DNA from: Chloroflexota bacterium
GTDB taxonomy: Bacteria > Chloroflexota > UBA6077 > FW602-bin22
DNA length: 64,000 nucleotides
Assembly: GCA_004297775.1 (NCBI GenBank)
Contig: SCUE01000012.1
Span: forward strand, 62,001 to 126,000
Direction of reading: 5' to 3'
Below are positions 32,812-38,147 of the stretch, piece after piece; position 1 is the first letter of the stretch, and each line of letters begins with the position of its first letter. The position numbers and the translations under genes are program-made. Below the pieces are notes generated by a model. The model was given only the letters and a program-made list of their open reading frames with translations, ran no database searches and was not told the DNA's origin.

Positions 32812-35241
32812 ATGGCAGAGGCGGCTCGCAGATCGCGCACGGGAACGGCCGCGGCGCTCGAAACGCATCCGTGGACGGGTATCAGCGCGGCGGAGCTCCC
32901 CGTGCTCGAGTCGATTCAGAAGCGCGTACTGTGGCTTTCGACACAGATGGTCCACCACGCGAACAGCGTCCGGCCGAATGTCGACGGTTTGAAGGTTGGC
33001 GGCCACCAGGCGTCGTCGGCGTCGATCGTGTCGATCTTCACCGCGCTCTGGTTCGCCTACCTGCGATCAGGCGACCGCGTCGCGCCGAAGCCGCACGGGT
33101 CGCCGGCGTTTCACGGTATTCAGTACCTGCTCGGTAACCTCGATCGTTCATTGTTGCCGCGGCTTCGCGATTTCCACGGCCTTCAGTCGTACCCGTCCCA
33201 GACGAAGGACCCGGGGCCGGTCCATTTCTCACTCGGATCGATGGGGTTTGGTGCGACTGTGCCCGCGTTCGCGGCTTTGCTGAGCAAGTATTCCGAGGCA
33301 CATTTCGGCGCGCCGGGCGGTCGCCGATTCGTGTCGGTCGTCGGTGACGCGGAGTTGGACGAAGGTTCGATCTGGGAGGCCGTCGCCGAAGAGCAGATCG
33401 GCACGCTCGGAAACGTTCTCTGGATCGTCGATCTCAATCGCCAGAGCCTGGATCGCGTCATACCCGGGATTCGCGCTGGCCAGTTGCAGGAAATGTTCCG
33501 GGCCAACAACTGGCACGTCCTCGAAGCGAAGTATGGCCGCAAGCTACAGGCCGCCTTCGCGCGCCCGGGTGGCGACGCCCTTCGCCGCGCGATCGACGAG
33601 ATGAGTAACCAGCAGTATCAGGCCCTCATTCGACTCGACGGTGGCGAGATCCGCGACCGCCTGGCCCACGTCCCGAACGGTGACGCTGTCGCGCGCTTCC
33701 TGCGACCGTACGCGGACGCCGATCTGGCTGACCTAGTCGGCGATCTCGGCGGTCACGATCTCGGCGAACTGACGCGGAAGTTTGCCGAGGCGGAGCGCCA
33801 CACCACGTCGCCGACTGTCCTGTTCGCCTACACCGTCAAGGGGTGGGGTCTGCCGTTCGCGGGCGAACCCATGAATCACTCGGCTCAGTTGACACAACAG
33901 CAGATGGACGACCTTCGGGTGAAGCTCGGGATCCCCGCGGACGATCTGTGGGCTGGATTTGCTCCAGATACGCCCGAAGCCGAGTTGATTCAACGGGCGG
34001 CCGGGCGATTGACCGAGGATGAGCCTGACACGCGAAAGCTCGTGCCAGCCACGGCGATTCCGTCGACGGTGAACACTCGTTTCCAGGATCGTATGTCGAC
34101 CCAGGAGGCGTTCGGTCGCGTCATGACCGACCTCGCGCCGCTGGCCGGCGTCGGCGACCGCATCCTGACGATGTCGGCCGACGTGGCCGTCTCGACGAAC
34201 CTGGGCGGATGGGTGAACCGGGTCGGCGTCTTCCACGCGACGTCGCAGGAGGAGGTACCCCTCCCGGGACCACGACTACTCCGTTGGCAGCCGGGGCCGG
34301 CCGGGCAGCACATCGAACTCGGGATCTCCGAGATGAACCTGTTCACGCTGCTCGGACAGGCCGGAGTCAGCGCGGAACTGATCGGTCAGCACCTCTTGCC
34401 GATCGGCACTGTCTACGACCCGTTCATCTGCCGCGGACTCGACGCGATCGTCCACGCGCTGTACTCCGGCAGCAAGTTCATCATCGTGGCCACGCCGTCG
34501 GGCATCACACTTAGCCCGGAGGGTGGCGCCCACCAATCAACTGTGACACCCGGGCTCGGCATCGAACTCCCGGGGATGAGGCCGTACGAACCGGCGTTCG
34601 CGCGCGAACTGGAGTGGTGCCTGCTCGAGGCGCTGCGCCTCTGCTGTGACCGGGAGAACGGGCTGGCGACTTACCTGCGCCTGTCGACCAAGCCGGTCGA
34701 TCAGGCACTCATCGAGCCGGCGTTGCGCCGGCTCGGCGAAGAGCAGTTGCGCGCCGACGTTCTGGCTGGCGGCTACCGACTCGTTGATTGGCGTGACTAC
34801 GCGGGTGATCTCGACTCGGCGGATCTCGTTCACATCGCAACCGTGGGGACGATCGTGCCGGAGGCGATTGAGGCCGCGCGACGGCTGCGAGCCGAGGGAG
34901 TTCCGACAAACGTCCTGAACCTAACCAGCGCCGGGCGTCTGTTCGACGAATACGCTGGTTCGCGGCGGCAGGTGATTCGGACCGGGCGCGGCGGCGCCGA
35001 TCTCGGTCAACTCGGACGACTGATCCCGCCCGACGAACGGCGTGCGCCGATCGTGACCGTTCTCGATGGCTCGTCGCACGCGCTGGCGTTCCTTGGGTCG
35101 GCGATTGGGACCCGGGTCGTTCCGCTGGGCGTCGACGCCTTCGGGCAATCGGGGTCGATGCCGGACCTCTATCGCGAATACGGCGTCGATGCCGATCACA
35201 TTGTCAATGCGGCGCTTCTGGCGCTCGAAGAGGCGCGGTAA
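32812..35241 (+). CDS. AceE/transketolase-like thiamine-diphosphate enzyme
   Basis: 809 residues, the layout of homodimeric E1/transketolase enzymes: ThDP-binding (PP) domain, pyrimidine (Pyr) domain, then a transketolase C-terminal domain. The Mg/ThDP motif is VVGDAELDEGSIWEA (about 178-192) with the distal DLNRQSLDRV in place of the usual Asn segment; the Pyr domain carries ELGISEMNLFTLLGQAG with the activating Glu, and GSKFIIVATPSGITLSPEGGAHQS resembles AceE. Substrate His are in HHANSVRP and KPHGSPAFHGIQYLL. Pyruvate or another 2-oxo acid is likely, but no E2 or E3 gene is nearby, so transketolase-like activity is possible. A methyltransferase gene follows 5 bp downstream. Confidence 0.85.
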   Translation: MAEAARRSRTGTAAALETHPWTGISAAELPVLESIQKRVLWLSTQMVHHANSVRPNVDGLKVGGHQASSASIVSIFTALWFAYLRSGDRVAPKPHGSPAFHGIQYLLGNLDRSLLPRLRDFHGLQSYPSQTKDPGPVHFSLGSMGFGATVPAFAALLSKYSEAHFGAPGGRRFVSVVGDAELDEGSIWEAVAEEQIGTLGNVLWIVDLNRQSLDRVIPGIRAGQLQEMFRANNWHVLEAKYGRKLQAAFARPGGDALRRAIDEMSNQQYQALIRLDGGEIRDRLAHVPNGDAVARFLRPYADADLADLVGDLGGHDLGELTRKFAEAERHTTSPTVLFAYTVKGWGLPFAGEPMNHSAQLTQQQMDDLRVKLGIPADDLWAGFAPDTPEAELIQRAAGRLTEDEPDTRKLVPATAIPSTVNTRFQDRMSTQEAFGRVMTDLAPLAGVGDRILTMSADVAVSTNLGGWVNRVGVFHATSQEEVPLPGPRLLRWQPGPAGQHIELGISEMNLFTLLGQAGVSAELIGQHLLPIGTVYDPFICRGLDAIVHALYSGSKFIIVATPSGITLSPEGGAHQSTVTPGLGIELPGMRPYEPAFARELEWCLLEALRLCCDRENGLATYLRLSTKPVDQALIEPALRRLGEEQLRADVLAGGYRLVDWRDYAGDLDSADLVHIATVGTIVPEAIEAARRLRAEGVPTNVLNLTSAGRLFDEYAGSRRQVIRTGRGGADLGQLGRLIPPDERRAPIVTVLDGSSHALAFLGSAIGTRVVPLGVDAFGQSGSMPDLYREYGVDADHIVNAALLALEEAR

Positions 35242-35246
35242 GTCGC

Positions 35247-36032
35247 GTGCATCAGGATACGATCCGGCGGGAGTTCGCCCATCAATCCTCGGCGTTCAAC
35301 GTCAGCCCGTTCATGCGGTCGGCCGAGGCGTTGACCGGGCTGATTGACTTCTTACCATTGGCGGACGATCAACGATGGCTGGACGTAGCCTGCGGTCCCG
35401 GTCTGGTTGCGCGTGCGCTGGCGCCGTGTGTTCGGTCGGTCGATGGCGTCGACCTAACGTCGGCGATGATCGATCTGGCCACGAGCGAGGCGCGCCGCGA
35501 GGCAATCACGAACGCGCGATTCAGCGTCGGTGACGTCACGGCGTTGAAGTGGTCAGACGGCGAGTTCGACGGCGCGGTGACTCGCTTCAGTTTGCATCAC
35601 ATTCCGCTCCCAGAGCGATGCGTCGAGGAGATGGCACGGGTCGTGCGAAGCGGCGGCTTCGTCGCAATCGGCGACCACCTTGGCGCGCGCGATCGCGCCG
35701 ACGGCGACTGGCATGAGACGATCGAACGTCTGCGCGATCCGTCGCACTGGGCGTGTCTGCCGCTCGCGATGGTCCAGGGGATGGCCGAGCGCGCTGGGCT
35801 CATGCGCGAAGGCGAGAAGGTCGTGCCGTTCGCGCTCGAGTTCGACGAATGGCTCAATCGCGGGTCGGGCGGTCCGGCGGCGCGACCGCTGATCGAGCGC
35901 GCACTCCGCGACCGACCGAATGGCGTCGAGAGCTTTCGGGTCGAGGTCGATGGGTCCGGTGTCGCGACGCTGCATTTGATGTACGGAATCACGCTGTGGC
36001 GGAAGCCCGTACTGACGGTCGCGAGCGGCTGA
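35247..36032 (+). CDS. Class I SAM-dependent methyltransferase
   Basis: 261 residues, GTG start 5 bp after the upstream stop, so probably in one operon. Methyltransf_11-type Rossmann fold: motif I WLDVACGPGLVARAL (residues about 44-58), VDGVDLTSAMIDLA for the ribose-binding acid, ARFSVGDVTALKWSDGEFDGAV, and FSLHHIPLPERCVEEMARVVRSGG. The C-terminal part is variable and probably binds the substrate. It may methylate a small molecule or a quinone precursor; substrate unknown. Confidence 0.85.
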   Translation: MHQDTIRREFAHQSSAFNVSPFMRSAEALTGLIDFLPLADDQRWLDVACGPGLVARALAPCVRSVDGVDLTSAMIDLATSEARREAITNARFSVGDVTALKWSDGEFDGAVTRFSLHHIPLPERCVEEMARVVRSGGFVAIGDHLGARDRADGDWHETIERLRDPSHWACLPLAMVQGMAERAGLMREGEKVVPFALEFDEWLNRGSGGPAARPLIERALRDRPNGVESFRVEVDGSGVATLHLMYGITLWRKPVLTVASG

Positions 36033-36093: not shown

Positions 36094-37635
36094 GTGGCTG
36101 CGCCGCCGTTTCGCCTGTACGACCAGCGTGGGCACGAGCGCGCATTCCCAACCGGTCGCCAAACGCTCCTGATCTTCGTCAACGCCGAATGTCCCACCTG
36201 CGCGATGACGCTGCCGCTGGTCGATCGCCTCGCGGCGGCAGTTGGCAGCGCGGCCGACATCTTCGTCATATCGCAGGACGATCTGCCCGACCGCGTCATC
36301 GAGCGCTACGGATCATCGCTGACGGTGCTCGACGATACCGACCTGGCGGCGTCGCGTACCTTCGACATCGACGTGGTGCCAACCGTTGTTCACGCCTATC
36401 CCGACGGGAACGTCCTGACGCGCTTCGTCGGTTTCGATCGCCATGCCTGGCGTGATCTTGCGCTCGACCTGGCGAATGTGACCGGGACGGCAATGCCACC
36501 GATCGACTGGGCGTCTCTGCCAGAAACCCGACCGGCGTGTGGATCGCGGTCGGTCGACATCGCGATCGAGGACATCGGCGACGCCGACCTCGTGTCGCGC
36601 AAGATCGACATCGCGCCGGGACGCGATCCGTTCGAGACGCTGATCGATATGGGCGTCACCGACGGATTGCCGGTCGTTCCGCCGACCCCTGAGCGTGTGC
36701 GGGCGATGCTGACCGGGACCGTCCGCGCGCCGGACGACATCGTCGCGGTTGTTCCGCCGAGTATGGGCACGGCGACGGTCGAGAAGGTGGCGATCAACGC
36801 AGTGATGGCCGGGTGTCGTCCCGAGTACCTGCCGGTGGTGATCGCGGCTGTCGAGGCGGTCTGTTCCGACGATTTCAACATTCACGGAGTCCTTGCGACG
36901 ACGCATTTCGTCGGACCGATCCTGATCGTCAATGGTCCGGTGCGCGATCGAATCGGCATGAATTACGGCGTGAATGCGCTCGGGCAAGGCAACCGCGCGA
37001 ACGCGACGATCGGCCGCGCGGTCCAACTCCTCGTACGCAACGTCGGAGGCGGTCGGCCGGGTGAGATCGATCGAGCCACTCTGGGCCAGCCCGGGAAGCT
37101 GACGTTCTGCTTCGCCGAGAACGAGGGGCGCAGTTCGTGGGCGCCGCTCCACGTCGAACGCGGATTCGCCGCCAGGCAGAGCACAGTGACCGCTTTCGCC
37201 GGAGTTGGTCCGGTCCCGATTGCCGACCAGGTGTCGCGATCGGCCGCGTCGTTGGCCCGGAGCTACGGCCTGGCACTCGCCGCGGCGTCGCACCCCAAGC
37301 AGTACGGTCTGGGCGAGATCGTCGTCATCATTCCGCCCGAGCACGTCGACACGTTTGCGCGCGACGGTTGGCCGAAAGAGAGCGTTCGCGCGGCGATTCA
37401 GGAGGCGACCCGAAAACCGGCCAGCGCCCTGCGCCGCGACGATGAGTGCCACGAGGGGATGCTTCCGTCAGACGTCGAGCGCGTCGGTTCGGCGACGCCG
37501 ATCGAGAAGTTTCGCTCGGTGCGCGATATTTCGATCGTGGTGTCCGGCGGCGATGCCGGGAAGTTCGGCGCCTACATACTCGGCTGGGGTGGTGGCTCCC
37601 GCATGACGACGCGATCGATAGAGGTGATGCCGTGA
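36094..37635 (+). CDS. Thioredoxin-like domain fused to large domain of unknown function; UGSC partner
   Basis: 513 residues, GTG start 7 nt after TAGACT. Residues about 1-130 form a thioredoxin-like fold: strand TLLIFVNAE, active-site CPTC (Cys33, Cys36), and the cis-Pro loop VVPTVVH (Pro96). A linker holds CGSR (149-152). Residues about 178-513 are a conserved-looking domain of unknown function: DGLPVVPPTPERVRAML, ATVEKVAINAVMAGCRPEYLP, NYGVNALGQGNRANATIGRA, LGQPGKLTFCFAENEG, and a glycine-rich C-terminus (YILGWGGGS). The stop overlaps the selenoprotein start by 4 bp (GTGA), so production is coupled. From memory, relatives of this domain occur next to UGSC proteins in other phyla. Probably reduces or is reduced by the selenoprotein; substrate unknown. 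Confidence 0.75.
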   Translation: MAAPPFRLYDQRGHERAFPTGRQTLLIFVNAECPTCAMTLPLVDRLAAAVGSAADIFVISQDDLPDRVIERYGSSLTVLDDTDLAASRTFDIDVVPTVVHAYPDGNVLTRFVGFDRHAWRDLALDLANVTGTAMPPIDWASLPETRPACGSRSVDIAIEDIGDADLVSRKIDIAPGRDPFETLIDMGVTDGLPVVPPTPERVRAMLTGTVRAPDDIVAVVPPSMGTATVEKVAINAVMAGCRPEYLPVVIAAVEAVCSDDFNIHGVLATTHFVGPILIVNGPVRDRIGMNYGVNALGQGNRANATIGRAVQLLVRNVGGGRPGEIDRATLGQPGKLTFCFAENEGRSSWAPLHVERGFAARQSTVTAFAGVGPVPIADQVSRSAASLARSYGLALAAASHPKQYGLGEIVVIIPPEHVDTFARDGWPKESVRAAIQEATRKPASALRRDDECHEGMLPSDVERVGSATPIEKFRSVRDISIVVSGGDAGKFGAYILGWGGGSRMTTRSIEVMP

Positions 37636-38147
37636 GGATTCTCGATCCGACCGACGAACGGGTACCGCCACGACTGGTCATGGCGCCACGCACGCGCGTG
37701 CTCGCGGGCACCGTCGGTATTCTCGACATTTCCAAACCGCGCGGCGACGTCTTTGTCGCGCGCGTTCGCGAGCGCCTGACCGAGATCGACCCGGGGCTCA
37801 CTCTGCGCAGCTACCGAAAGCCGACCTACACGCGACCAGCCCCCGAAGACCTTCGGCAGACGATTCAGCGCGAATGCCAGTTCGTCATCGAGGCGCTGGC
37901 TGACTGAGGGTCCTGCACGACGTGCAGTGTGCACGACACGATCTGGTTTGAAACGCATGGTATCCCGGCCGTCTTCGTGGCATCGAGCGCGTTTCGCGTC
38001 GCGGCCGAGGTACAGGCCGATGCGCTCGGCATGCCGGATGCCCGGCGCGTCTTCGTTCCGCACCCAATCCAGGACGCGACCGATGACGAGATGCGCGCGA
38101 AGGCCGACGCGGCGGTGGAGGATTTGCTGAGGTCGCTGCGCCTGTAG
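37632..38147 (+). CDS. UGSC-family selenoprotein (Sec at codon 92, in-frame TGA)
   Basis: 171 residues when the TGA at 37905-37907 is read as selenocysteine. The GTG at 37632 overlaps the stop of the partner gene. Before the TGA the product is 91 residues (VRILDPTDERVPPRL... ECQFVIEALAD); after it the same frame continues as GSCTTCSVHDTIWFETHGIP and runs to a TAG at 38145. The motif is therefore U92-G-S-C95-TTC98, the hallmark of the UGSC (seleno)protein family, whose members have the same SVHD segment and ALGMPD...PHP C-terminus. A hairpin suited to a bacterial SECIS follows. The active selenol and neighbouring Cys suggest a redox enzyme, with the thioredoxin-like partner upstream. SelA/B/C/D are not in the window. 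A conventional gene caller would split this into one or two false ORFs. Confidence 0.88.
37905..37935 (+). promoter_or_regulatory. UGA selenocysteine codon and candidate bacterial SECIS hairpin
   Basis: After UGA (37905-37907) the stem CGUGCA (37921-37926) pairs with UGCACG (37930-37935) around a GUG loop. The loop starts 19 nt after the codon, within the 16-37 nt window known for bacterial SECIS elements, and its first base is the required G. An alternative stem CUGCAC/GUGCAG (37913-37927) lies too close to the UGA and competes with it. Confidence 0.7.

Follow-up and report, generated by a model that had tools for sequence, protein, structure and literature searches.

One gene in the window, the 64,000-nucleotide stretch of Chloroflexota DNA that was analysed, very probably encodes a real selenoprotein with selenocysteine (Sec) at an in-frame TGA, and its sequence places it in the already known UGSC family. 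GrdB is the substrate-attacking selenoprotein of glycine/sarcosine reductase. New here are an apparent homology of UGSC to the Sec domain of GrdB, a near-obligate partner domain that we call U1, and a linkage to a cassette of sel genes. The coordinates of the features are given in Table 1.

Table 1. Features of the UGSC locus in the window.
Feature	Position	Strand	Basis
UGSC-family selenoprotein gene (very probable), 171 residues, Sec92, GTG start, TAG stop	37632..38147	+	NF041046 and PF24696
In-frame TGA, very probably selenocysteine, residue 92	37905..37907	+	TGA in 80/80 named relatives; Sec machinery of the genome
UxxCxxC motif, U92 G S C95 T T C98	37905..37925	+	Alignments of family members
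Bacterial SECIS-like hairpin, CGTGCA-GTG-TGCACG, six pairs, three-base loop	37921..37935	+	Conserved among relatives
Partner gene, 513 aa, redoxin domain and uncharacterised U1 domain	36094..37635	+	Stop overlaps UGSC start
ResA/thioredoxin-like redoxin domain, CxxC at residues 33-36 (codons 36190-36201)	36094..36588	+	Foldseek ResA
U1 domain, near-obligate UGSC partner	36589..37632	+	Without Pfam match
SAM methyltransferase-like gene, 61 bp before the partner gene	35247..36032	+	Profile match

The UGSC gene and its in-frame TGA

Under the standard code (table 11) the open reading frame listing ends the frame at 37907 and restarts it at a GTG at 37929, as the first-pass annotation had said. 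Its reading through the TGA was also confirmed on the sequence: from that codon onward the translation is UGSCTTCSVHD, and the frame stays open to a TAG at 38145-38147. That the frame is open before and after the TGA says little by itself: at 66% GC, the window has 101 TGA codons, counted over six frames, that are flanked by comparable open stretches (at least 85 codons before and at least 70 after). The reading stands above chance because homology runs through the TGA and because the codon recurs in the relatives. Model NF041046 matches residues 27-169 with 159.6 bits (cut-off 125) and PF24696 matches residues 3-169 with 155 bits (cut-off 25). Both matches extend across the TGA and exceed the curated cut-offs, and the [U/C]GSC motif is present as U92-G-S-C95.

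A genome collection was scanned with six peptide patterns, which returned 382 stretches, 133 of them encoding a relative; the best 80 were kept and are referred to as the named relatives. All 80 (best 80 of 133; 56-67% identity) have TGA at the motif. The window product can be aligned with UGSC/CGSC members along almost all of its sequence, and none of the 80 shows a normal stop or a lost C-terminal half, that half being conserved. By title, the named relatives come mostly from Chloroflexota, Gammaproteobacteria and Alphaproteobacteria, with Acidobacteriota and others also represented; the closest (66-67% identity) are mainly Chloroflexota. Positions 92, 95 and 98 are invariant in 81/81 close members (alignment A2). 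Among more diverse members (alignment A1), positions 92 and 95 are kept in 36/36 and position 98 in 22/36, Cys98 being missing in 14. The earlier statement that the C-terminal half would lack its catalytic N-terminus was imprecise, as Sec lies in the middle of the protein and the two further motif cysteines belong to the C-terminal half.

Six of nine plasmid-borne relatives were examined. Five carry Cys at the motif (two haloarchaea, Arthrobacter, Embleya and Variovorax) and one, from Acidovorax, carries TGA. The latter lies on plasmid p2-T1 of Acidovorax sp. T1 (L195:4920-5210), which is typed IncP and conjugative; it is annotated as a 96-aa hypothetical protein ending at the Sec codon, likely a misannotation. 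Divergent UGSC-like copies were also seen. The first copy of locus L185 and that of L186 read UGSCST.. followed by a GIP/GVP stretch, and in sequence they look midway between UGSC and GrdB. The copy in L173 reads UGAC, and in the second copy of L185 neither U nor C occupies the site. The genome under study holds a second copy (C6:144825-146375; L139:6757-8382), fused as UGSC-U1, in which USTC replaces UGSC; a TrxB-like gene (258.8 bits, under the cut-off of 343) begins 3 bp after it.

The genome (96% complete, 7% contamination, 38 contigs) was searched for selA, selB, selC and selD, and the four were found. selA lies on contig C12 (553 bits) and selB on contig C19 (296.7 bits; 327.6 together with its neighbours in frame). 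selD lies on the window's own contig (394 bits) and has one inner TGA of its own (Sec-type selD). A tRNA-Sec with a TCA anticodon (UCA) is located about 11 kb past the end of the window (ARAGORN; Rfam 74.4 bits). The Rfam search gave matches in all 14 control genomes, over the cut-off in 5, and a second match over the cut-off in the own genome (47.1 bits) reads as tRNA-Ser; the tRNA-Sec call therefore rests on ARAGORN and the 74.4-bit match together. We also considered selB presence as a marker of UGSC genomes and set it aside, since it separates them weakly: selB is over the cut-off, judged by eye from E-values, in 37/41 UGSC genomes versus 269/359 others, the remaining 4/41 being G209, G258, G328 and G343.

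Bacterial SECIS elements are described as hairpins that follow the UGA and carry a guanosine in their small apical loop (PMC1088965, in the portion available), and this feature is present in the window, with a loop that starts 19 nt after the UGA. At least 6 of 7 examined pairs are kept in 107/110 sequences and G is first in the loop in 109/110, although these counts are non-independent because many rows are close relatives. The mean number of pairs formed is 6.05, versus 4.75 (maximum 5.03) in 500 synonymous-codon shuffles. In the window sequence the conserved hairpin (-7.4 kcal/mol) falls short of the minimum-energy fold, an alternative reaching -11.8 kcal/mol. The stretch that follows the TGA shows no stability beyond that of shuffles (z +1.03), and 190/1000 synonymous shuffles fold as well. 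Support for the hairpin thus comes from conservation, without local energy support. The assignment as a UGSC selenoprotein rests on the family cut-offs, the Sec machinery, the TGA in all named relatives and the kept hairpin.

The partner gene and the sel cassette

The UGSC gene and the partner gene before it overlap at GTGA (37632-37635), GTG being the start of the former and TGA the stop of the latter, an arrangement suggestive of translational coupling. The N-terminal domain of the partner scores 25.1 bits with Pfam Redoxin, just under the cut-off of 26.6, and is ResA-like in the predicted model (Foldseek ResA, TM-score by target about 0.8). U1 has no Pfam match even at E 10, and the whole 513-aa protein has no NCBIfam match except a weak MauD match on the redoxin part. 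The listed fold matches of the whole partner are filled by thioredoxin-domain structures and give no placement for the fold of U1. Among 28 diverse U1 copies, N235, N303, R308, E342, E344 and W349 are among the residues kept at 85% or more, and none of the residues so kept is a Cys.

U1 is a near-obligate partner of UGSC. It was found in 73/80 named loci, together with a redoxin in 69/80, and redoxin and U1 form one continuous open reading frame in at least 65 of the 80; the DNA fetched for the other 7 loci holds no U1. In a count that includes overlapping loci more than once, U1 lies within 700 bp on the same strand at 160/180 UGSC places; of the other 20, 7 are cut by an end and 13 lack U1 though both flanks exceed 1.4 kb. 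Separate searches of 400 genomes of the phylum found UGSC in 41, U1 in 41 and both in 40, so that 42 genomes hold one or the other (Fisher p 8.5e-53 for co-occurrence), with UGSC alone only in G250 and U1 alone only in G073. The U1 query was built from UGSC neighbours and could favour such copies; divergent copies elsewhere would be missed, not miscounted. In many genomes UGSC is fused to U1, and U1 is probably the "Unknown_1" domain of the GOS paper (PMC2398784). Four haloarchaeal plasmid loci (L192, L197, L198 and L199) also carry UGSC-U1 pairs; a DUF6282 gene lies near the pair in L192, L197 and L198, and UGSC is flanked by two U1-type genes in L197 and L199.

selA and/or selB open reading frames were observed within the DNA fetched, which spans at most 6 kb on either side, in 29/80 named loci, the selA, selB and Ndh-SelD clusters each being identified from one representative. 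In 19 of these 29 a single strand carries selA-selB-(redoxin-U1)-UGSC in that order. ARAGORN was run on 59 of the 80 loci and found tRNA-Sec in 28/29 sel-linked loci (the exception being L111) and in 0/30 others scanned. Ndh-SelD type open reading frames occur in 11 named loci. In Alphaproteobacteria and some Acidobacteriota, UGSC-U1 travels with its own selA-selB-tRNA-Sec, sometimes with Ndh-SelD, and may thus be the client for which those lineages keep Sec. Among the matches in 12 sel-linked genomes no formate dehydrogenase has an inner stop, so this enzyme does not look like a Sec client there. Clusters of selABC with fdoGHI, with two further open reading frames beside selB, have been described in Alphaproteobacteria (PMC8124441); UGSC is not among the cluster genes in the available part of that paper.

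The neighbours of UGSC other than U1 and the sel genes vary widely: across the 80 named and 50 other loci, the recurrent ones are scattered and mostly catabolic-looking. The order trxB-trxA-U1-UGSC occurs in Arthrobacter. TrxB-like genes were found in 6/50 further loci and CoA transferase genes likewise in 6/50. Transporters of the tripartite tricarboxylate, TRAP and lactate/oxalate-type MFS classes (the MFS below cut-off) lie near several copies, and phosphosulfolactate synthase genes are present in two plasmid loci, as a lead only. The methyltransferase-like gene of the window is absent from the recurrent neighbours; it directly follows a gene at 32812-35241 for an 809-aa transketolase/pyruvate dehydrogenase E1-like protein (204 bits versus an aceE cut-off of 860).

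Relation to GrdB and predicted fold

We compared the UGSC profile (A1) with seven GrdB/GrdF sequences, one of them annotated as the sarcosine reductase of Peptoclostridium acidaminophilum, using hhalign. The alignment has a probability of 96.7% (E 4.4e-10) over 93 columns, places Sec on Sec, and pairs UGSC from residue 72 to its end with GrdB/GrdF columns 330-426. Controls were far lower: none of 25 other open reading frame clusters of the same loci, some of which may be spurious, exceeded 2.07%, and column shuffling, repeated 20 times, gave no more than 1.04%. Masking residues 92-98 leaves 88.4% over 61 columns, and masking 88-100 leaves 88.0%. The closer-relative alignment A2 gives 92.9%. 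Scores are weaker against PrdB alone (75% with A1, 33% with A2), and are 61% (A1) and 12% (A2) against small GrdB-like proteins. These profile comparisons indicate homology between UGSC and the Sec domain of GrdB, with UxxCxxC in common, and, together with the constant partner gene, suggest that UGSC may work like the selenium half of glycine reductase.

The Pfam model of GrdB, PF07355, ends just before the Sec; it has no match to the UGSC protein even at E 10 and none in the own genome. A search of the own genome for GrdA gave no match, and the controls gave none either. U1 was also tried as a relative of GrdE and rejected (0.55-1.06%). It resembles neither GrdE nor GrdB, so the partner of UGSC differs from that of glycine reductase. 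In another genome of the same class, an 11.6 kb contig (L165; G065:C216:1-11584) carries three TGA-containing GrdB-type genes, each adjoining, by eye, a GrdE-like open reading frame.

The AF2 model of UGSC (pLDDT 93.4) comprises five strands alternating with helices in a Rossmann-like arrangement, with Sec just after strand 3. Among its best PDB fold matches are riboflavin/lumazine synthase and flavodoxin-type folds, none above a TM-score of 0.54; the likeness is one of fold class and does not mark a homologue. No thioredoxin occurs in the best 50 of 1790 PDB fold matches (up to E 10), and the predicted fold is not thioredoxin-like. The UGSC profile found nothing meaningful among PDB sequences (best E 0.11), and a GrdB structure sought in the PDB was not found (best E 0.098). 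The link to GrdB consequently rests on profiles, not on a solved fold.

Proposed role, alternatives and comparison with known systems

The reading to which we give moderate confidence is that of a GrdB-like reductase, in which the TGA encodes Sec, UGSC is a minimal, free-standing relative of the GrdB Sec domain, U1 is the substrate part and the redoxin is the electron carrier. Decoding of the TGA would yield a small Rossmann-like protein with Sec just after its third strand, in UxxCxxC. As part of glycine reductase, GrdB binds the substrate glycine (PMC13188914, available in part). We infer that here U1 would bind or activate the substrate and present a small organic acid, and that the Sec92 selenolate would attack the carbon bearing a leaving group and displace it. 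Cys95/Cys98 and the redoxin would then regenerate the selenol by reducing the selenium adduct or selenenylsulfide, with release of the reduced acid; elsewhere, thioredoxin and thioredoxin reductase would replace the redoxin as reductant. The computed features on which this scheme builds are the recoding context, the GrdB homology, the near-obligate U1 and the redoxin/thioredoxin-type partner in many loci. The organic acid itself is suggested circumstantially by the transporters and CoA transferases near several copies. The likely role is thus a thioredoxin/redoxin-driven reductive cleavage of an organic acid that U1 would bind. Taken further, UGSC and U1 could constitute an undescribed class of Se-dependent reductase at home in lineages other than the classical amino-acid fermenters, in which a stripped-down GrdB-type Sec protein and a new subunit for substrate binding would draw on redoxin or thioredoxin to cleave a C-X bond of an organic acid; this wider proposal is tentative, and we put it slightly below an even chance.

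Other explanations account for parts of the data. An ordinary thioredoxin-like thiol/selenol-disulfide oxidoreductase, with the redoxin as electron donor and protein disulfides or peroxides as acceptors, would fit the UxxC motif and the redoxin domain of the partner gene, and the available part of the GOS paper suggests a Trx-like fold for UGSC (PMC2398784). We consider it unlikely: the AF2 model is Rossmann-like and thioredoxins are absent from its best 50 of 1790 PDB matches, UGSC scores 1.25% against the redoxin-bearing alignment A3 versus 96.7% against GrdB, and the near-obligate U1 would be left unexplained. The closely spaced Sec and Cys ligands of UxxCxxC might instead bind a metal or organometal, as suggested for the Sao-type selenoproteins SaoB and SaoC and for UXX-star in the accessible text of PMC13188914. 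This is improbable, since homology points to GrdB and no metal transporter was recognised among the listed open reading frame clusters of UGSC loci. One small cluster from 4 Chloroflexota loci resembles a MerR regulator, judged by reading its sequence.

A role of UGSC and U1 in selenium handling, such as delivery to SelD or selenium sensing, would account for the linkage to selA and/or selB and tRNA-Sec in 29/80 named loci and to Ndh-SelD in 11. We judge it improbable, because 51/80 named loci (many of them incomplete) have no selA/selB open reading frame in the fetched DNA and five of the six plasmid relatives examined carry Cys. Of these five, both haloarchaeal ones have CoA-transferase genes nearby and the Arthrobacter one adjoins trxB-trxA. 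Finally, the TGA might genuinely terminate translation, or be an error, with the gene being a pseudogene or a pair of small genes, given that the standard code splits it and that the local RNA fold is not unusual; with TGA in 80/80 named relatives, a conserved C-terminal half and Sec machinery in the genome, the probability of this is very low. The GrdB-like reductase remains our preferred reading.

Among the selenoprotein families of the GOS data, UGSC ranks fifth by number, with 255 sequences (Table 2 of PMC2398784). The first-pass annotation called it a known family whose role is open, in agreement with the portions available of PMC2398784, PMC13188914 and PMC9312934, which give no function. 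Neither the link to GrdB nor the Sec cassette appears in the available parts of these three papers or of PMC5029168, PMC5330540, PMC7435645, PMC7539508, PMC8124441 and PMC1088965. An abundant uncharacterised selenoprotein family thereby gains a mechanistic hypothesis, a partner that is nearly always present and a cassette that brings its own recoding genes. With the GrdB link and the tie to U1, what was an "unknown redox protein" can be treated as a two-component reductase open to testing. If true, glycine-reductase-like use of selenium would extend outside Stickland fermenters, and this would explain why some Alphaproteobacteria keep the whole Sec cassette.

The window protein has the motif, length and Sec of the UGSC family as modelled in NF041046 and PF24696, whereas the redoxin-U1 partner is no part of either model. 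The UGSC/Unknown_1 fusion of the GOS data (PMC2398784, seen in part) likewise joins UGSC to an uncharacterised domain, probably U1; that paper stresses Cys and infers a Trx-like fold, whereas U1 here has no Cys kept in 85% of the 28 copies. GrdB, which binds glycine, releases NH3 and has UxxCxxC (PMC13188914, in the part available), has in common with UGSC that motif, an E..GIP stretch and a C-terminal HP stretch. No part of UGSC aligns with about the first 330 residues of GrdB, so that only the Sec half is common. The trxB-trxA genes that precede one U1-UGSC pair may be compared with the redoxin gene that lies, by eye, upstream of one GrdB-like gene (locus L141, genome G065; one case).
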